From Dehalobacterium formicoaceticum (GTDB lineage Bacteria > Bacillota > Dehalobacteriia > Dehalobacteriales > Dehalobacteriaceae), in contig NZ_CP022121.1 in assembly GCF_002224645.1 (NCBI RefSeq), forward strand, positions 1,494,501 to 1,558,500: a stretch of DNA of 64,000 nucleotides. Reading direction: 5' to 3'. The position numbers and the translations under genes are program-made. Positions 3,975-25,020 of the stretch are shown here, one piece after another. The first letter of the stretch is position 1. Each line of letters opens with the position of its first letter. The notes under the pieces are model-generated. The model saw only the letters and a program-made list of their open reading frames with translations, searched no databases and had not been told where the DNA came from.

Positions 3975-4628
3975 TTGGATCATAATAAATCAGCCAGTTT
4001 TCGCACCCAGCTTTTAAAAGAAAAGGAAGAGCTCAACAAGAGCATCGCAAGCCTCAATCAGGGATTAAGTGACTCGATGCCTGATTCCATTAGTGAATTA
4101 TCTATGTATGATAATCATCCGGCAGATATAGGAGATGAATTATTTGAACGAAGTAAAGACCTGTCTCTAAGAGATAGTGCTCATATACAGTATCAAAATG
4201 TGGTACGAGCTTTGGAAAGAATTGATGATCAAACTTATGGGATCTGTGCTCAGTGTGGGGCAGCGATTGATATGGCAAGACTGGAGGTTATGCCCTCCGC
4301 GGAATTATGTCTGCCTTGTAAAAAGGAACAGACAGGACCGGATCGTACCCCTCGCCCCATTGAGGAACAGGTGATTCAACCACCTTTTGGCAATCAGAGG
4401 CATGGGGATGGCTCTTCGGAATCAAACGCCTTTGACGGAGAAGATGCATGGCAGGCTGTGGCCCGCTTTGGTACCGCCGACACGCCCCAGGATCTGGAGA
4501 AAGGAAATAACGCCCAATATCCAAATATTTATGAGGAATGGGAAGAAGATCTGAGTGGGGTGGAGGATGTAGATCAAATACCCTATGTTCGTACCAAAGA
4601 CGGGATCATTCATCAGGATTTTAGCTGA
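3975..4628 (+). CDS. yteA: YteA-type sporulation protein with DksA/TraR zinc finger (copy 1)
   Basis: A 217-aa protein of the YteA family, related to DksA/TraR. An N-terminal helical hairpin (about residues 10-90) contains the conserved segment YDNHPADIGDELFERSKD; the C4 zinc finger follows as CAQCGAAIDMARL...AELCLPC (residues about 96-118). The C-terminal third is acidic and of unknown role. YteA is linked to sporulation, and DksA-like proteins act in the secondary channel of RNA polymerase; no direct function is established here. Start codon TTG 3975 is supported by AAGGAGGG nine bases upstream. The protein differs from copy 2 at several positions, including the residue pair after CGA in the zinc finger (AI here, HI there). 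Confidence 0.88.
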   Translation: MDHNKSASFRTQLLKEKEELNKSIASLNQGLSDSMPDSISELSMYDNHPADIGDELFERSKDLSLRDSAHIQYQNVVRALERIDDQTYGICAQCGAAIDMARLEVMPSAELCLPCKKEQTGPDRTPRPIEEQVIQPPFGNQRHGDGSSESNAFDGEDAWQAVARFGTADTPQDLEKGNNAQYPNIYEEWEEDLSGVEDVDQIPYVRTKDGIIHQDFS

Positions 4629-8649: not shown

Positions 8650-9219
8650 ATGAATACCGTTTCAGCACCAGCAATACCTCGTTGGAAGACAGCGCTCAAC
8701 ATGATCATTAATCCGGGTGAAGTGGTGAAAAACCAGATGATCAGGATTCCCTGGCCGTATTCCCTGATGGTTTCCGGGTTGTCCTTTACGCTTTTTTTTC
8801 TACAAACAGGCCTTGACCTGCAGCGGAACGGGCAGGTTGAAACAAGTACGGTGATTTTGATAACCATGCTGGGACTCTTATACGGAACAGTGGGGATTGC
8901 TTTGCTGGCCGTGATGGTCTGGGCCTTATCCCAGGCGCAGCAGCATGGTTTCACTATTGGTTGGGCTATATCCACCTTTTCACTGGGGTATTCGGCAACT
9001 TTTGTCTATGCCTTAAGCGGCTTGATCTTTTCCCTGGCTTTAGGTTGGAAGACCGCGGTCGCCTTTGGCGTTACCGGAGTTCTCTGGGCACTAAGGCCCA
9101 CTATGTACACCATAAAACAAATGTCAGGGGAACGGACCGCTTTCAGCATTGCCATGACCACCCTCTGCGGAGCGATTCTTCTGATCGGTTGGGCCTTGCT
9201 GGGGAAATTAGGCGGTTGA
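8650..9219 (+). CDS. Yip1-like multi-pass membrane protein
   Basis: A 189-aa protein with about five hydrophobic segments (near residues 38-55, 72-95, 105-135, 140-155 and 168-188). The soluble start ending in NMIINPGEVVKNQM resembles the opening of bacterial Yip1-domain proteins (a stretch of the form 'P...F..i'). Function unknown; relatives are often found beside zinc-ribbon membrane proteins. It has an AGGAGG site, and the downstream gene at 9262 follows after 42 bases. Family assignment is tentative. Confidence 0.6.
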   Translation: MNTVSAPAIPRWKTALNMIINPGEVVKNQMIRIPWPYSLMVSGLSFTLFFLQTGLDLQRNGQVETSTVILITMLGLLYGTVGIALLAVMVWALSQAQQHGFTIGWAISTFSLGYSATFVYALSGLIFSLALGWKTAVAFGVTGVLWALRPTMYTIKQMSGERTAFSIAMTTLCGAILLIGWALLGKLGG

Positions 9220-9261: not shown

Positions 9262-9753
9262 GTGGATACCAGAATGGGATATGCAGGAGGAGCCAGACCG
9301 GCAGGGGTTAAATTATGGCCGGCTTATCTATGCTTCATAATATTCGGGATATTGATGCCCTTCAGCCGACCGGAATTTAAATTTACTACCTTGATATATT
9401 CGCTGATTGTGGCCATCATCGTAGGCTTACTGGCAGTGAATCTGCTGATCATAGCTTTTAACAGCGGCAATGCAGCTTTGCGGCAGGCAAAGGGAGGATT
9501 TGCCCGGGAAGCTGTTGGGACGGGGATGTTGTTTATGATCCCCTTTACAGTTTTGGCAGTACTGGCCTTGGCCTTACTGGGCTGGAACGCGGTGATGCCC
9601 TTTGCTTCGTCAGCCATTACTACGGCAGCAGCAACGGCAGGGTCCGAAGCGATGAAAAGAGGCGCCCAGGGCGTGAAAAACGTCATGATTCCAACCCTGG
9701 TGGCCATGGTGCTTTCGACGGCATGGATGATGCTGACCGGCATCCTTCCTTAG
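9262..9753 (+). CDS. Small membrane protein, unknown function
   Basis: A 163-aa protein starting at GTG 9262 (GGGGGATG upstream). About four hydrophobic segments are visible: residues 18-33, 42-65, 88-108 and 142-161; between the third and fourth lies an Ala/Thr-rich stretch (SSAITTAAATAGSEAM). It resembles its upstream neighbour in general layout (Yip1-like topology), suggesting they pair. Its stop is eight bases before the start of the giant protein, so they are translationally linked. No family recognised. Confidence 0.6.
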   Translation: MDTRMGYAGGARPAGVKLWPAYLCFIIFGILMPFSRPEFKFTTLIYSLIVAIIVGLLAVNLLIIAFNSGNAALRQAKGGFAREAVGTGMLFMIPFTVLAVLALALLGWNAVMPFASSAITTAAATAGSEAMKRGAQGVKNVMIPTLVAMVLSTAWMMLTGILP

Positions 9754-9760
9754 GAAAGGG

Positions 9761-12700
9761 GTGAGAGATTTGTTGAACTTATCAATTGCGTGCAACAAAA
9801 AAAGAATAGATAAACATTTCCTGTCGCTTTTGGCGCTGTGCCTGGTTTTTACCTTATTGATGGTTAATGCCTTCCCTGAGAAAGCACTGGCTGCAAATGT
9901 CGGTGATGTTGTTACCCAGGTAACCAATGATAATCTGGGTTCAGCGGAATTCAATTTCGGGCAGGAAGAAGCTACCGGTTATGGTTTTGACATTCATGCC
10001 GGTGTGGGTGAACTTGGCAGCGGCGGTTGTCAGCTCAGCGTTTTGGGGCCGGCCCAGCTGGATGAAATCCAAATAATGATCGACTATATAGATAGCATCT
10101 CCCAGGTCAGTTATATGCGAACTACCCAGCTAAAGGGCTGTGAACTGAGAGAATACGATACCGAATACGGCGTAGGTATCGGGATTATCCTGCCGGATTA
10201 TTTTATCACGGTGGAAACAATGGAAACCGGCCAAAGTAAGGATGCTGATATGGCTTTTGCCAAGAAAATTGCTCAGCAGACGATCGATGGAATGGAAAGG
10301 GCAGGGCTTTTAAGTCAGGCAGCCCCGGATATCGAATCAGGGACTTCCGAAGAAGAAAAACCAGCCGCAGGTATTGACTCGGAAGCCTCTCTGCCTGCCG
10401 CTGCAGAACCAGTTGATGAGCCGGTACTCGTGGCAGATACGACTAATATTATGGCTGTTTATAATGGACCGACGGTACCTACCACCTTTAGCATCGATAG
10501 TCCCCACCTGGTTACCGAGATTCACAACTATCACTGGAATGATGCCCAGGGGGCAGCCCCTGGAACCATAGGTTTACAGGACCAGAACGGGAAAATGTAT
10601 GGCCCCTGGCAGGCGGTGGCCACGCCGGGACAAGGGGGAGTACCCAATGCTAACTGGTTTGTTTATCCTAAAATTGTCATTCCGGCCGGGACCTATACTA
10701 TCATTGATTCTGATCCGTCCACCTGGTCTCAAAATGGGGATTCGGGCGGCAAAGGTATGTCATACGTGAAGGCTACGCCTCATTTTGAAATAACCGGCGC
10801 AGCTCCCACAGGTACAGGGAATGCACCGGGAAGTTATCCGACAGGAGATAGCCACAGCCCGGCAGGAGTTGGTTCAGTCGGCAGTATCCCCGGACCGTCA
10901 AACACTACTGAAGCGGTCACAGGCGTCGTCGCGCCCGGATTGATCGCCATCGCCTTAGGAGCTTTGGGCAGCCTGGGCGGCGGAGGATTTAGCCCGCCTG
11001 CAGGCGGTGTACCTATGCCCCCTACTGGCGGAGGACCACTGCCCGGCGCTGGGGGCGTCCCGGGCACCGGCGGAGGATCACCGGGGATGGCCCAGGCGAC
11101 CGGTCGGTTAGGACGTCGGGGCAGAGAAGAGATCCTGGTCGACACAAGGGATATGTCACCTGGTGGTGGGATCCAGGAAAATCCGGCTGACCAGGGTATC
11201 TATATCGAGACCGAACGGGAAGCCGGCCTGTTTGTACAACCGGAACCTCTGATTAATGATCCGGGACCGGAAATTTTCATCGATACCATTGATATGAATC
11301 AGCAGGCCATCGATATCAGGGAAGCAGGGGGAGAACCGGGCATCCATATCGACACCACAGATATGTTTGAAGGAAATCAGGCCATCGGTGCATCCGGTGA
11401 CCAGGAGATCTTTATTGAGACGGAAGCAGAAGCCGGTTTGTTTACCCAGCCGGAACCCCTGATTAATGATCCGGGACCGGAGATTTTCATCGATACCCTT
11501 GATATGCAGGAACAAGCCGGTGGTATCAGGGAAGCAGGGGGAGAACCGAGCATCCAGATCGACACTGGGGCTATGGCAGATCTAGAGATGGAACCACAGG
11601 CCTTCAGTGCCCGGGAAGGAGAAGCAGGAGGAGTACATTTTGCTGCTGCTGAAGAAAGCCAGGGAACTCCCATTGCTGACCAGGCCGAACACCTGTATAT
11701 GGATACTGAAGAAACAGAAATTCTGCGCGATTCCGGTTCTCTGGAGGACAATGGGGGGACGGAAGCGGCTCCGGAAACGACAGTGGTAACTGAAGAAACC
11801 TTTGACCAGAACGGGTTTGATGCAGAAGGTTATGACCGGGAAGGATTTAATCAAGCGGGTTATGATCGAGACGGCTTTGACAAAGAGGGCTTCGATAAAG
11901 CCGGTTATAACAGTGAGGGTTTTGACCAGGATGGTTTCAATGAAGCCGGATTCAATGCGCAAGGTTATGACCGTGCAGGTTTTGATGTCAATGGTTTTGA
12001 TGCCGAGGGCTTCGATAAGGCAGGTTTTGACGCCGAGGGCTTCAATAAAGCTGGTTTCAATGTCGAAGGTTATGATAAGAATGGTTTCGACCGGCTCGGT
12101 TTTGACAAAGAGGGCTACAATCAGGAAGGGTTCGACCAGAAAGGCTATGACCGGGAAGGCTTCGGACGGAATGGTTATGATGCCGAAGGCTTCAATCGGG
12201 AAGGTTTCGATCAGGAGGGTTTTAACAAAGAAGGCTATAACCAGGCGGGTTTTGATAAAGAAGGTTTCAACCAAGCAGGCTTTGATAAAGAGGGCTTCGA
12301 TCGTCAGGGCTTCGACAAGCAGGGACTGGATCGGGAAGGCTTCGATAAAGCCGGATTTGATGTGGAAGGCTACGACCGGCAGGGCTTTGATCAGGAGGGT
12401 TTTGACAAAGAAGGCTTCAACCGGGAAGGTTTCGATCAGGCGGGCTTTGACAAAGAAGGCTTCAATCAGGAGGGCTTTGATAAAGAAGGCTTCGATCGTC
12501 AGGGCTTCGACAAGCAGGGACTGGATCGGGAAGGCTTCGATAAAGCTGGATTTGATGTGGAAGGCTACGACCGGCAGGGCTTTGATCAGGAGGGTTTTGA
12601 CAAAGAAGGCTTCAACCGGGAAGGTTTCGATCAGGCGGGCTTTGACAAAGAAGGCTTCAATCAGGAGGGCTTTGATAAAGAAGGCTTCGATCGTCAGGGC

Positions 12701-15700
12701 TTCGACAAGCAGGGACTGGATCGGGAAGGCTTCAATAAAGCCGGATTTGACGCGGAAGGCTTTGATCGGCAAGGCTATGATATCAATGGATACGACCGCA
12801 AGGGCTTCAATCGCAGCGGCTTTGATGCCAAAGGGTTTGATAAACAGGGTTACGATAAGGAAGGGTTCAACAAGGATGGTTGGGACCGGGAAGGCTATGA
12901 TCGTAACGGTTTTGATGATCAGGGCTGGGATCGGGAAGGCTACGACAAGTTCGGTTATGATGAGGAAGGTTACGATCGGGATGGCTATAACCGGGAAGGC
13001 CAGTCCAAAGAGGGTTATGACGCTGACGGCTATGATAAGAATGGGTTCAATGAAAACGGCTTTGATCGTGATGGCTATGATCGGGAAGGTTTCGATTTTG
13101 AAGGATACAACCGCAGCGGCCGTGATCCCTGGGGCTATGATCGGCAGGGATATGGAAAGGACGGATATCACTGGAGCGGCTATAATGCCGATGGCTACAA
13201 CCGGGAGGGGATGCACTGGACAGATAATCCCTATGAGGGTGACAGCCCCTTTAATGTGGATGTAGCACGTAATCCCTTTGATGGAGGAATCGTTATAGTT
13301 GATGGTGTGAGCGGTGGTAGTGATTTGTCAGAAGGATGGAAGCCGACTAAGCCGCCCCTGGGAGAACCATATCATCAGACCGTGGAAAAATACGGAGCCA
13401 AACCATGGACCGATGAGATCCCGGCGCCGGAACCGGAAAGACCATCCATACCTTCGACAGAGGATAGCGGTGTGATCGGACCGGAAGATCCTATGAATAC
13501 TTTGAAGAATCATGATATCCCGATCCCTGAAGAGGATGTTCCCCAGGGTGAATGGCCGGGATCTGAACCAGAAGAGCGATTCCCCGGAGATCAAATTCCG
13601 GAGACACAATCGAACACGTTTGATTACACGGATCCGGAAACGGGTGTCACTTCCACTTATGAATATGAACCTGGATATTTGGGACCCCGGCATGGAGACC
13701 GGCAGATCCTGACAGGTGGGGGTGATGGGCAGACCTATGAAATCGAATTCAATGCGGTCACCGGGAAATGGGTAAATACGGAGTCCGGAAATGAATTTGA
13801 TCCCAGTCGCTTTGAGTCCTGGCAGAGGGATGTAGCCGAAGACAAGCGGCGGGCTGCAATTGATCTGGAAAAGATGGCTCGACGGGAGGATGCTAACAGC
13901 AAAGCCATAGACAAAAACCTGGAAGATTGGCGCAAGCTGGAGCAAATGCAAAAAGCAGCTGACAAATATAATATCGGAACACCCGGTGGACCGGGAGACG
14001 TTGACAAAGCAATCCAAAACCTGAAGGATGATATGTTGGCCGGCAAAGAACTGGATCAGGAAAAAATGGATAAGATCCGTCGGGTCATCGATAATCGCAT
14101 CCAGGGGCAAACCACTGCCGATACCGGGGAACGCTGGAACGAGGATTGGTTTAAAAACCTGGGCTGGGCCTTGGAAGCCAATGCAGCTACTGCTCGGGAA
14201 GTAGTGACCGGTGAAAAGGCAGATGGCAGTACTTCTTGGCTGGGCATGGGAGCCAGGATCATGATCATGGCGGCTACCGGTGGGTTGGCCGGGGGCGCAA
14301 GTCTCACTTACGTCACTCTAGACGGAGCAATGAATGTAGCGGAAGCGATGTACCGCATTAAGGATGAGATCGATAAAGGCGGATCTGATTTCAGAGCCGT
14401 CTCCAAAGCAGTCGGACTATTTGTTCTGGGAGAAGAAATGGGCTGGCTGGCCGGAGAGGCCGGGGGCAGGGTCATGGGTGAGCTGTTTGAGCGCTTCCCC
14501 GCCTTCAGCAATCAGGCAGCTGATCTTATCGAGAATGCATTCCTGAAGGCCAGCGCCAAGAATCAGGTGTGGAGCAAGGCACTGGGTATGGTGACCCAGG
14601 AATCAGCAGAGTCCTCCCTTGATCAGATTAATAAGCGATTAGTGGATATAGGCAGTGACCAGGCGGCCAGGGAAATCATCGATAGTGCCAGGACAGATTT
14701 TGGACTGAGATCAGTGGCGGATTCCTTCGATGATGTGACTAAAGGTGCCGGAAAAACAGCCGCAGGTACCACCGGAGATGTGACAGGCAGAGCTACCAGA
14801 TCTACAACCGAAGGCTGGACAGATGTCGTAGATGGAGGGGGCACAACAGCTGCTGGAACTAGAGGGGGCAGAGCTCCTTCGGGCAGTGATGACATATCCG
14901 GAGGGACCGGCAGAGCAGCCTCCACCAAGACTTCTCCATCAGGGGGCGACGGACCTGGTGGAACACCTGGCGGAAGAACGGCCGGTAGCGCAGGCGATGG
15001 ACCGGGCGGGCCACCCAGAGGCGGAGACGATGGACCTGGTGGACCACCTGGCGGCGGAGACGATCTGCCGGGCGAACCGGATAATTTGCCATTGAACCGC
15101 GGTGGCAGGACCCCGGATGAAGTTTTGGCTGATCCGGCGGCTCTAAACAGGGCGGAAAGAAGCGTACAGCAGAATATGAAGAACTTTGATCAATTACCCC
15201 CGTCCAAACAACAGGAATTGATCAGAGATCAGGCCATTTATGATGAATATCGGATGCAGGCGGAGGAAAGAGTCTGGAATCTGGCTGACAGAGTCCAACG
15301 AGGCGAACCGCTGACGGTTGAGGATATCATGGAAATGAAATCTGATCCGGCTTCCATGAGAACACTGAAAAACCTTGAGGAAATGGATGGCTTAGGATCT
15401 CAATTGACACCCCAGGAAGCTCAGGGGATCCAAAGAGAGTTCAACAATGTCATGGATGAGTATGTACATCAACCATCTTATCGGAGCGTAGAGGATCACC
15501 TGCATAACCGCTATCCGAATGTTGATCCGGAGGGGATAAGGGTCAGAACGGTACGCACACCAGGTACAGAACCGACTGATTTCAATATCAATACGGATAA
15601 TGATGTGATTGCTGAAAGACTGGTAAATGGCCCCCATGGACCTGAATGGGTGGAGATCCCCAAAGGGGAGTGGGAAGATACCTACTATAAGGCTTTGGCA

Positions 15701-16366
15701 GAGAATTCCGGTTTCAGTGCTGAAGAGGCTGGGCGTCGTTTTCCTGATACGGACTGGGCCAACATGGATGAAGCAGCCCAATACCGGCAATGGGCCAAAC
15801 ATCACGAAGAAGCTGCTATGGATCAGTTTGATCTTTCTGCCGGCAGGGATTTCAGCGACCAGCGGACCTGGCGTATACCGGATGGGGACCTGCCGGGCAG
15901 GCCGATGATCGAACTTACGGAAGATGAGATCGCCCGCGGGGTGGATTTTGTAACCATCGATGGAAGACCGATGCGGCCTTCCACCGGTTATGAACTGACC
16001 CAGAGAGGGCAGGGGACCATGATGGATCCGGAACAACTGTCCATGATGGAACAGCATAAATTCGACGATTACTGGAACGCAGGAGATACTCCCGCACAGG
16101 TGATGCGCAATCAGACTGAGGCCATGGAACAATTGCGTAAAACGGCTTCTGTGGCAGAAACGGTAGAAAGAAGTTATCGGGATATGGGATACCGGGTGGA
16201 AGCCATGCCTGATAATATGAAGCAGGCGATCGCACTGATCAGAAACAATGATCTTTCACCGGCGGCGCGGGCTGCCCGTTTGCAGGAATTGGGATATACT
16301 TCCCCTGGAGACTTTTTGAATAAAGTAAGCAGTCGTATCGGCGCCATCAGAACCGCTCAGAGATAA
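9761..16366 (+). CDS. Giant secreted 2201-aa protein with 94 tandem [FY][DN]xxG repeats
   Basis: Begins at GTG 9761 (AGGA five bases upstream; TTG 9770 or 9773 are alternatives). A signal peptide ends at about KALA-A (residues 20-46), so the protein is exported. Layout: a 100-residue N-terminal domain; a second beta-rich domain (about 225-350); a Gly/Pro-rich segment with one hydrophobic stretch (about 390-445); two 70-residue repeats ending in PEIFIDT-DM (about 465-605); 94 contiguous five-residue repeats (681-1150); an acidic Pro-rich spacer; a helical charged region (about 1350-1470); a Gly/Ala-rich hydrophobic stretch (about 1490-1530); a GDGPGG-type hinge (about 1727-1775); and a 425-residue C-terminal module with the motif TDFNINTDNDV. 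The order export signal - long repeats - hydrophobic stretch - flexible hinge - unique C-terminus is that of polymorphic toxins and large surface adhesins. No domain is recognised with certainty and no enzymatic activity can be claimed. Confidence 0.85.
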   Translation: MRDLLNLSIACNKKRIDKHFLSLLALCLVFTLLMVNAFPEKALAANVGDVVTQVTNDNLGSAEFNFGQEEATGYGFDIHAGVGELGSGGCQLSVLGPAQLDEIQIMIDYIDSISQVSYMRTTQLKGCELREYDTEYGVGIGIILPDYFITVETMETGQSKDADMAFAKKIAQQTIDGMERAGLLSQAAPDIESGTSEEEKPAAGIDSEASLPAAAEPVDEPVLVADTTNIMAVYNGPTVPTTFSIDSPHLVTEIHNYHWNDAQGAAPGTIGLQDQNGKMYGPWQAVATPGQGGVPNANWFVYPKIVIPAGTYTIIDSDPSTWSQNGDSGGKGMSYVKATPHFEITGAAPTGTGNAPGSYPTGDSHSPAGVGSVGSIPGPSNTTEAVTGVVAPGLIAIALGALGSLGGGGFSPPAGGVPMPPTGGGPLPGAGGVPGTGGGSPGMAQATGRLGRRGREEILVDTRDMSPGGGIQENPADQGIYIETEREAGLFVQPEPLINDPGPEIFIDTIDMNQQAIDIREAGGEPGIHIDTTDMFEGNQAIGASGDQEIFIETEAEAGLFTQPEPLINDPGPEIFIDTLDMQEQAGGIREAGGEPSIQIDTGAMADLEMEPQAFSAREGEAGGVHFAAAEESQGTPIADQAEHLYMDTEETEILRDSGSLEDNGGTEAAPETTVVTEETFDQNGFDAEGYDREGFNQAGYDRDGFDKEGFDKAGYNSEGFDQDGFNEAGFNAQGYDRAGFDVNGFDAEGFDKAGFDAEGFNKAGFNVEGYDKNGFDRLGFDKEGYNQEGFDQKGYDREGFGRNGYDAEGFNREGFDQEGFNKEGYNQAGFDKEGFNQAGFDKEGFDRQGFDKQGLDREGFDKAGFDVEGYDRQGFDQEGFDKEGFNREGFDQAGFDKEGFNQEGFDKEGFDRQGFDKQGLDREGFDKAGFDVEGYDRQGFDQEGFDKEGFNREGFDQAGFDKEGFNQEGFDKEGFDRQGFDKQGLDREGFNKAGFDAEGFDRQGYDINGYDRKGFNRSGFDAKGFDKQGYDKEGFNKDGWDREGYDRNGFDDQGWDREGYDKFGYDEEGYDRDGYNREGQSKEGYDADGYDKNGFNENGFDRDGYDREGFDFEGYNRSGRDPWGYDRQGYGKDGYHWSGYNADGYNREGMHWTDNPYEGDSPFNVDVARNPFDGGIVIVDGVSGGSDLSEGWKPTKPPLGEPYHQTVEKYGAKPWTDEIPAPEPERPSIPSTEDSGVIGPEDPMNTLKNHDIPIPEEDVPQGEWPGSEPEERFPGDQIPETQSNTFDYTDPETGVTSTYEYEPGYLGPRHGDRQILTGGGDGQTYEIEFNAVTGKWVNTESGNEFDPSRFESWQRDVAEDKRRAAIDLEKMARREDANSKAIDKNLEDWRKLEQMQKAADKYNIGTPGGPGDVDKAIQNLKDDMLAGKELDQEKMDKIRRVIDNRIQGQTTADTGERWNEDWFKNLGWALEANAATAREVVTGEKADGSTSWLGMGARIMIMAATGGLAGGASLTYVTLDGAMNVAEAMYRIKDEIDKGGSDFRAVSKAVGLFVLGEEMGWLAGEAGGRVMGELFERFPAFSNQAADLIENAFLKASAKNQVWSKALGMVTQESAESSLDQINKRLVDIGSDQAAREIIDSARTDFGLRSVADSFDDVTKGAGKTAAGTTGDVTGRATRSTTEGWTDVVDGGGTTAAGTRGGRAPSGSDDISGGTGRAASTKTSPSGGDGPGGTPGGRTAGSAGDGPGGPPRGGDDGPGGPPGGGDDLPGEPDNLPLNRGGRTPDEVLADPAALNRAERSVQQNMKNFDQLPPSKQQELIRDQAIYDEYRMQAEERVWNLADRVQRGEPLTVEDIMEMKSDPASMRTLKNLEEMDGLGSQLTPQEAQGIQREFNNVMDEYVHQPSYRSVEDHLHNRYPNVDPEGIRVRTVRTPGTEPTDFNINTDNDVIAERLVNGPHGPEWVEIPKGEWEDTYYKALAENSGFSAEEAGRRFPDTDWANMDEAAQYRQWAKHHEEAAMDQFDLSAGRDFSDQRTWRIPDGDLPGRPMIELTEDEIARGVDFVTIDGRPMRPSTGYELTQRGQGTMMDPEQLSMMEQHKFDDYWNAGDTPAQVMRNQTEAMEQLRKTASVAETVERSYRDMGYRVEAMPDNMKQAIALIRNNDLSPAARAARLQELGYTSPGDFLNKVSSRIGAIRTAQR
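11229..11540 (+). repeat. Two 210-bp imperfect tandem repeats in the giant gene
   Basis: The segment starting GATTAATGATCCGGGACCGG at 11251 recurs at 11461, exactly 210 bases (70 codons) later, with matching flanks encoding AGLF-QPEPLINDPGPEIFIDT-DM. A shorter third echo (EILVDTRDM, EIFIETEAE) lies before and between them. Confidence 0.85.
11801..13210 (+). repeat. 94 x 15-bp coding repeat ([FY][DN]xxG pentads)
   Basis: 1410 bases encode 94 pentads in register, e.g. FDKEG, FNREG, YDRQG, FDQAG. Position 1 is F or Y (rarely L, W, Q, R), 2 is D or N, 5 is always G; position 3 is often K, R, Q, A and 4 is E, A, Q, N or D. Inside it, a 195-bp higher-order unit (13 pentads) occurs nearly identically two and a third times, marked by TCGTCAGGGCTTCGACAAGC at 12301, 12496 and 12691. 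Confidence 0.95.
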
Positions 16367-16397: not shown

Positions 16398-17510
16398 GTG
16401 GAAATGAATACAGAAAATCCGGGCAGCGTTGAGGTATTCAAACTGGCTCCGGCAGATATTGATCATTTGTACAGACGTTCCGGATTGACTGGGAATCCGC
16501 TTTCGTCTTACAGCTATCATGCGGAACAGGCTGCCACCAGCAGTCCCTCAGAATTATTCAAACTGCTGGCGGAAAGTGCTAATTTTGCATCGATTGCAAA
16601 AAAATTGCTGGCACCGGATTTGAAAATCGAATTCAAACGCGGGGGAGCCGGTTCAGCAGAAGAAACATATCTTGCCCTTCTCTCCCTGGGCGATAATGAC
16701 GTTTTAGCCCATTTTATAGGTCAAGATGGAAATATATTGCTGCTGTTTTTTGATAATGAAGAAGCGTTTTTGCAATGGTGGTCGGGCATTTATGCCTCAA
16801 AAGCATCCAGCAATTACCAGCCGGTGTTCCCGGATGTTATGTCTGCGGAAGTTCTGGTCTGTGCCCTGCACTGTATCGACATTTATCGCCGTGCCTACAT
16901 GGAAAGCATGCTGGATTACCGGGGCGGCCTGGATCTGGCCATTAGCACCCAGGATTTTGTTCAATTGCTCAAACGCGCCCTGTCCAGTCAGGACAAACGG
17001 TGGCTTTTGCCCACCATGTTTGAGATCACTCCCGGACTAAAAGAGATCAATATCGCCTTGAAACCGGAACATATTAAAAAAGTTCAGGAACTGGGCTTTT
17101 TGACCGGCAATGAAAACCCCTTGACCTTGGGAGAACGTGCGCGGCTGTTGGGTACTGAGATTATTACCGGCTGGCTGGGGTCTATCGGCTGTCAGGCTAC
17201 GGCTTTGATCAACGGTCAGGAGAAAAGCCTTTCCCGGATTTTTCTGACGCCCACGGCTTTTGCTAATCACTTGTTCTCCTTTGAGATCGGGGCAGGAGGC
17301 GATACGCGGTTTCGTCATCAGGCCAGCACAATGCCTGAGCTGATCCAGACCATGATGAAATGGATTGAGGCTCTGCAAAAAGTAATCGGTGGCACCGGCC
17401 CGGCCAAAGCCGCCAAAGGGGAAACCCCGGCGATGAAATTTTGCGGGCAGTGCGGGGCGGAATTGAAACCCGGCAAGAAATTTTGCACCAAATGTGGAAT
17501 ACCGCTATAA
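16398..17510 (+). CDS. Cytoplasmic protein with C-terminal zinc ribbon, partner gene of the giant protein
   Basis: A 370-aa protein without signal or membrane segments. The first 340 residues are an alpha/beta fold I do not recognise, possibly two related halves (SPSELFKLLAES...LLSLGDNDVLAHFI and GERARLLGTEIITGW...IFLTPTAFANHLFSFEI). The last 25 residues form a zinc ribbon, FCGQCGAELKPGKKFCTKCG. It starts at GTG 16398 behind AGGAGG, 31 bases after the giant gene, so it is co-transcribed with it. By position it could be a chaperone, immunity or assembly factor; there is no sequence proof for any of these. Confidence 0.65.
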   Translation: MEMNTENPGSVEVFKLAPADIDHLYRRSGLTGNPLSSYSYHAEQAATSSPSELFKLLAESANFASIAKKLLAPDLKIEFKRGGAGSAEETYLALLSLGDNDVLAHFIGQDGNILLLFFDNEEAFLQWWSGIYASKASSNYQPVFPDVMSAEVLVCALHCIDIYRRAYMESMLDYRGGLDLAISTQDFVQLLKRALSSQDKRWLLPTMFEITPGLKEINIALKPEHIKKVQELGFLTGNENPLTLGERARLLGTEIITGWLGSIGCQATALINGQEKSLSRIFLTPTAFANHLFSFEIGAGGDTRFRHQASTMPELIQTMMKWIEALQKVIGGTGPAKAAKGETPAMKFCGQCGAELKPGKKFCTKCGIPL

Positions 17511-24366: not shown

Positions 24367-25020
24367 TTGGATCATAATAAATCAGCCCGTTTTCGCACCC
24401 AGCTTTTAAAAGAAAAGGAAGAGCTCAGCAAGAGCATCGCAAGCCTCAATCAGGGATTAAGTGACTCGATGTCTGATTCCATTAGTGAATTATCTATGTA
24501 TGATAATCATCCGGCAGATATTGGAGATGAATTATTTGAACGAAGTAAAGACCTGTCTCTAAGAGATAGTGCTCATATCCAGTATCAAAATGTGGTACGA
24601 GCTTTGGAAAGAATTGATGATCAAACTTATGGGATCTGTGCTCAGTGTGGGGCACATATTGATATGGCAAGACTGGAGGTTATGCCCTCCGCGGAATTAT
24701 GTCTGCCTTGTAAAAAGGAACTGGCAGGACCGGATCGTACCCCTCGCCCCATTGAGGAACAGGTGATTCAACCACCTTTTGGCAGTCAGAGGCATGGGGA
24801 TGGCTCTTCGGAATCAAACGCCTTTGACGGGGAAGATGCATGGCAGGCAGTGGCCCGCTTTGGTACCGCCGACACGCCCCAGGATCTGGAGAAAGGAAAT
24901 AACGCCCAATATCCAAATATCTATGAGGAATGGGAAGAAGATCGGAGTGGGGTGGAGGATGTAGATCAAATACCCTATGTTCGCACCAAAGACGGGATCA
25001 TTCATCAGGATTTTAGCTGA
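24367..25020 (+). CDS. yteA: YteA-type sporulation protein with DksA/TraR zinc finger (copy 2)
   Basis: A 217-aa twin of the gene at 3975 with the same TTG start, AAGGAGGG site and C4 zinc finger (CAQCGAHIDMARL...LCLPC). Substitutions relative to copy 1 include S/R at residue 8, N/S near residue 20, P/S near residue 36, A/H inside the zinc finger and QT/LA shortly after it. All four zinc cysteines are kept in both copies. Confidence 0.88.
   Translation: MDHNKSARFRTQLLKEKEELSKSIASLNQGLSDSMSDSISELSMYDNHPADIGDELFERSKDLSLRDSAHIQYQNVVRALERIDDQTYGICAQCGAHIDMARLEVMPSAELCLPCKKELAGPDRTPRPIEEQVIQPPFGSQRHGDGSSESNAFDGEDAWQAVARFGTADTPQDLEKGNNAQYPNIYEEWEEDRSGVEDVDQIPYVRTKDGIIHQDFS

Follow-up and report, generated by a model that had tools for sequence, protein, structure and literature searches.

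Register-locked aromatic-Asp/Asn-x-x-Gly pentads as a candidate spacer rod in a giant protein of Dehalobacterium formicoaceticum

A giant protein of Dehalobacterium formicoaceticum, encoded within the 64,000-nucleotide stretch of DNA analysed here (the window), carries 94 uninterrupted five-residue repeats, or pentads, that we think fairly likely to form one rigid, elongated spacer rod between the protein's membrane-anchored N-terminal part and its C-terminal module. The array lies at 11801–13210 of the forward strand (aa 681–1150 of a 2201-aa ORF), a span that 94 in-frame pentads fill exactly, as the initial annotation had it. Glycine fixed in every fifth position was also claimed correctly, being present at position 5 of 94/94 pentads. 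The accompanying claim of an aromatic at position 1 and Asp/Asn at position 2 holds in strict form ([FY][DN]xxG) for 84/94 pentads and fails for ten: FGRNG, LDREG (three times), WDREG (twice), QSKEG, RDPWG, YGKDG and YHWSG. Position 1 is F in 59 pentads and Y in 28, with L (3), W (2), Q (1) and R (1) making up the remainder; position 2 is Asp or Asn in 90/94 (D 67, N 23, G 2, S 1, H 1). K or R fills position 3 in 58/94, and position 4 is most often E (43), then A and Q (13 each) and N and D (8 each). The composition is hydrophilic, Gly-rich and polyampholytic, with 62 positive and 122 negative charges over 470 aa (net −60). Such a pattern cannot be chance.

The giant ORF (9761..16366, +; GTG start), which has homologues in several Bacillota, encodes in order a signal peptide, an N-terminal region with two Cys, a hydrophobic segment, a Gly/Pro-rich low-complexity linker, the array and the C-terminal module. 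The predicted signal peptide or first transmembrane segment (TM1; aa 15–44, 9803..9892, +; Kyte-Doolittle [KD] score 2.44) is also found in homologues. A conserved, hydrophobic, Gly-rich segment at aa 383–408 (10907..10984, +; KD 2.01) is a putative TM2; its counterparts in nine pentad-bearing homologues score 1.86–2.11 and are preceded by neutral flanks. Just before the array, a 210-bp tandem duplication (11181–11565; 1.8 copies, 83%) encodes acidic EIFIDTxDM repeats. Outside the array the protein matched no family in Pfam, NCBIfam or PHROGs, the PHROGs search returning zero matches. The C-terminal module (1051 aa; 13211..16363, +) is likewise without a fold match, with nothing in PDB below an E-value of 0.6; AlphaFold2 (AF2) modelled it at a mean pLDDT of 55.6, with the last ~420 aa predicted to be well folded. 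Two small multi-TM genes (8650–9219 and 9262–9753, +) sit directly upstream, as they do in homologous loci reaching far enough, and a downstream gene for a soluble protein with a C-terminal zinc ribbon (16398..17510, +) is co-conserved with the giant gene. LemA and DUF2207 genes follow farther on in some of the loci. Promoter and terminator scans returned background levels. A DksA/TraR zinc-finger gene is present on each side of the region (3975–4628 and 24367–25020).

At the DNA level, the array is no microsatellite, because its Gly codons are mixed (GGC 47, GGT 29, GGA 12, GGG 6) and its tail, compared with relatives, shows dN of 0.08–0.19, well below a dS that is either saturated or no lower than 1.4. 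The mixed third codon positions indicate that most of the array is old. A tandem duplication inside it (12242..12781, +; 195 bp or 13 pentads, 2.8 copies, 94%) is recent. Opposite the array runs a 544-aa antisense ORF (11582–13216, −), most likely a by-product of the repeat codon pattern. The search for a second copy in the same genome gave a single 68-aa match, of 38% identity and interrupted by stop codons.

Array-bearing homologues were found, among the matches listed by a pattern scan, in Syntrophomonas, Sporotomaculum, Gelria, Thermacetogenium, Desulfotomaculaceae and others. Named carriers of full-length homologues (L009, L032, L037, L047, L054, L076 and L111) belong mostly to syntrophic Bacillota lineages. 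Among 398 sampled genomes of the phylum, 10 (D. formicoaceticum included) encode the N-terminal half of the C-terminal module. Homologous arrays measure 66–94 pentads by longest run, some loci being truncated where a contig or stretch stops. The final 32 pentads (12731..13210, +) are conserved position by position, at 71–87% identity in true homologues versus 46–49% on average when slid out of phase, and the odd pentads QSKEG, DPWG and YHWSG are kept in place. One locus (L085) whose pentads fail to align in the tail (46% identity) was left out of the homologues. In two distant relatives (L133 and L134), where the locus is partly preserved along with the C-terminal part, pentads are absent; the array is therefore a module that a homologue can lack. 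Adjoining the array-less homologue of L134 is a gene for a 1603-aa protein with YD/RHS-like repeats (L134:11105–15916).

The five-residue register extends well beyond this family. In genomes and viral contigs, 98 other arrays that are not microsatellites were analysed after low-diversity ones had been filtered out; 2493 of 2691 of their motif-to-motif distances (93%) were multiples of 5, compared with 22% in shuffled sequences. The remaining distances were mostly 12, 13, 17 and 18, the latter two equalling a 12- or 13-residue unit plus 5, with 4, 6, 7, 8, 11 and 14 almost absent. The 12- and 13-residue units have their own consensus, that of the latter approximating [IL]H+xTGTx[YF]D. Several arrays (L015, L022, L026, L027, L070, L145, L147, L149 and others) are interrupted mainly by defined 9-, 12- and 13-residue units, and the 13-residue unit is common to archaea, Clostridia, Coriobacteria and phages. 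These break units look like a second conserved unit type. Such strict spacing is more than a flexible tether would require, and the quantised spacing together with the last 32 pentads fixed by position points to a folded, register-locked structure. The rod- or stalk-like role suggested by the initial annotation is the likeliest reading.

Structure prediction by AF2 used 30 pentads with a 41-row alignment. The result was highly confident (pLDDT 97.0, pTM 0.69), with five models alike at 95.4–97.0. Disorder throughout, which the initial annotation had raised as a possible outcome, was not seen; no disorder at all was predicted. By DSSP the model contains no helices, no strands and only 2 bridge residues, so the predicted array is ordered without regular secondary structure, and the beta-solenoid that had also been proposed was not predicted in the DSSP sense. 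We weigh this model lightly because AF2 is over-confident on repeat sequences, for which it can give confident yet unrealistic structures (PMC11795689), although the blind spot described there concerns beta-solenoids, which the pentad model is not by DSSP. Foldseek found 0 matches to the model in PDB and a single weak match of 23 columns in BFVD, in a search where periodic structure was possibly masked. A toy backbone scan, which lacked side chains and energies and speaks to geometric possibility alone, not in support of the model, showed that a five-residue superhelix with D-x-x-G-like angles can be built free of clashes and with 3–5 H-bonds per pentad; in its top hydrogen-bond solutions each turn takes about two pentads, and the rise per pentad is 3–6 Å.

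D/N-x-x-G with free Asp/Asn exchange is consistent with an Asx-capped turn whose last residue is a Gly in left-handed conformation. Each pentad would contribute one such turn and add one aromatic to a hydrophobic spine, and the 94 pentads would build a single continuous, rigid, elongated structure. The rod would serve as a length-adjustable spacer between the membrane-anchored N-terminal part and the C-terminal module, a role we infer because array length varies from 66 to 94 pentads and two distant relatives have no array. Its middle would lengthen or shorten as whole pentads are duplicated. The ~30 pentads at the C-terminal end would stay fixed and would probably serve for docking or capping. 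A register-locked, adjustable rod would account together for whole-pentad length changes, the fixed end, absence from some relatives and the parallel with the DotG/IcmE stalk considered below.

Other structures would explain parts of the evidence. A disordered "sticker-and-spacer" polymer, with aromatic stickers and Gly/charged spacers acting as a condensate scaffold or flexible tether, suits the hydrophilic, polyampholytic composition and the varied, partly cytosolic contexts of the arrays (DnaJ, kinase, zinc ribbon), and the AF2 confidence that speaks against it is unreliable on repeats. We regard it as unlikely, given the invariant Gly, the few off-phase spacings over 98 arrays, the conservation of the last 32 pentads each in its own place and the predicted order. 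More improbable still is a beta-helix of unusual sequence, either of the classical pentapeptide-repeat (Rfr) type or DotG-like. The five-residue period, a weak match of one array row to Pentapeptide_4 and the sequence match to DotG repeats, themselves proposed to be beta-helical, would favor it, and it is opposed by the strandless AF2 model and by the residues around the aromatic. Taking the aromatic as centre i, residues allowed at i−2 in pentapeptide-repeat proteins (A/C/S/V/T/L/I) occur in just 17/94 pentads and Glu in 43/94, i−1 is always Gly, and the Pfam scan of the array gave no PF00805 match. The initial annotation was therefore right that the pentads are unlike A(D/N)LxX repeats. Turns of choline- and glucan-binding repeats also read [YF]-[DN]-x-x-G, and cell-wall-binding and RHS YD turns may be alike. 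This possible resemblance, with the dense aromatic and acidic residues and the net −60 charge, could suggest an array that binds a glycan or Ca2+, which we consider very unlikely. Asp and Asn exchange freely at position 2 (67:23 in the window array, 1707:1010 over the 98 other arrays), as expected of an Asx-capped turn and not of a Ca2+ ligand; the Pfam scan gave no RTX, EF-hand, CW_binding or RHS match, and several arrays sit in cytosolic-type proteins. Ca2+ binding, as initially proposed, thus has no sequence support.

The side of the membrane on which the rod would lie is a separate question, an extracellular stalk being compatible with a rod. The initial annotation had the array push the C-terminal module away from the cell, which we find doubtful. 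If the hydrophobic segment at aa 383–408 spans the membrane, the Arg residues that follow place the array and C-terminal module in the cytosol, and this is probably their location. An array outside the cell, with the putative TM2 not a membrane segment, is a lesser but real possibility; consistent with it are the signal peptide, the Gly-rich character of the segment and the array-less L133 protein, whose signal peptide is the only segment to pass the hydrophobicity threshold used. Against it, the segment is conserved and similarly hydrophobic in every pentad-bearing homologue examined, the linker after it carries Arg in several of them, and the co-conserved zinc-ribbon gene encodes no hydrophobic segment.

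Arrays of the same motif were found, among the matches listed, in many bacterial phyla, Thaumarchaeota and phages; the genome pattern scan includes microsatellite-like reading frames, so these matches indicate presence, not prevalence. They accompany VWA, protein kinase, DnaJ with DUF6273, zinc-ribbon and PelG contexts, and one Nitrosopumilus protein (L056) consists of pentads only. A PelG-annotated protein of Cetobacterium somerae (L205:2435–4546) bears a C-terminal pentad extension that starts with a lipoprotein-like segment, and viral contigs L146 and L156 contain ORFs of 1713 and 1996 aa with about 100 or more pentads. Literature searches with repeat motif strings returned nothing, and no experimental work on any such array was found. 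Tentatively, the pentads may represent a widespread, undescribed rod fold with no PDB precedent, a superhelix of D-x-x-G turns with an aromatic spine. Neither alpha helices nor beta ladders would take part in it, and a small set of defined 9-, 12- and 13-residue units would be interspersed among its pentads. Such a fold would be common to bacteria, archaea and phages and would also occur in the stalks of some DotG-type secretion proteins. If the rod reading is true, many phyla and phages use one simple five-residue unit as a molecular ruler of adjustable length, and pentads in a DotG-type protein would offer a workable model of the type IVB stalk repeats, whose structure is poorly resolved.

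Among known systems, the closest is DotG/IcmE, which like the window array has a long Gly-aromatic repeat region and gave the best sequence match to a solved structure (PDB 7muc/9ngv; E 3e-17 with a single sequence, 2e-25 with a profile). The repeat unit of Legionella pneumophila DotG is 30 bp or 10 residues (PMC2639597), and its repeat region of about 600 residues has been proposed as a beta-helix that perhaps makes up a periplasmic stalk or channel (PMC6362355; PMC7511231). In the alignment Gly-Phe recurs mostly every second pentad of DotG, unlike the window array with Gly in each. The giant protein itself is not DotG: it matched NCBIfam NF033900 at 66.2 bits in the repeat region only (equivalog cut-off 750 bits), the Pfam scan found no VirB10/TrbI C-terminal domain in it, and Pfam and NCBIfam scans of the flanking genes found no type IVB secretion genes. 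The rod would nonetheless act like the DotG/IcmE repeat stalk. A DotG-type protein of Vibrio hepatarius (L063) joins the two systems, with many [FY][DN]xxG pentads, interrupted by breaks, between an N-terminal TM and a DotG-type, VirB10-like C-terminus (NF033900, 1e-20, residues 1019–1205); its gene adjoins DotH/IcmK (PF12293), and its pentads occupy the place of DotG's stalk repeats. This locus (L063:3356–7012) also has many Cys-bearing pentad variants (GCNRxGLDKxGxPC). A plasmid-encoded protein of Photobacterium damselae with the annotation DotG/IcmE/VirB10 matches as well.

The Pfam "Decapeptide repeat region" (PF25296), a model that carries no function, scored 40.9 bits on the window array and 27.4 on the whole protein, short of its gathering cut-off of 45. 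That cut-off was passed by one full homologue (L054, 50.4 bits) and an unrelated locus (L013, 98.2 bits); the model matched 20/41 array segments and gave sub-threshold matches in 6/14 control genomes. Profile searching thus yielded a solved DotG/IcmE entry and PF25296 just below cut-off, and no PF00805. The pentads are not new as a sequence pattern, because they overlap both PF25296 and the DotG/IcmE repeats. PF00805 proteins share the five-residue period and an aromatic or hydrophobic centre; the window array differs from them in its invariant Gly, and AF2, itself unreliable on repeats, predicted no beta-ladder of the Rfr fold for it. The elastin-like beta-spiral, which the rod may resemble, makes one turn per pentapeptide, with an invariant Gly and Val-Pro. 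The window array has an aromatic and Asp in place of Val-Pro, and AF2 gives it a single ordered structure. Taken together, the array is real and widespread, a variant of DotG/Decapeptide-like repeats with a moderate chance of a new fold.
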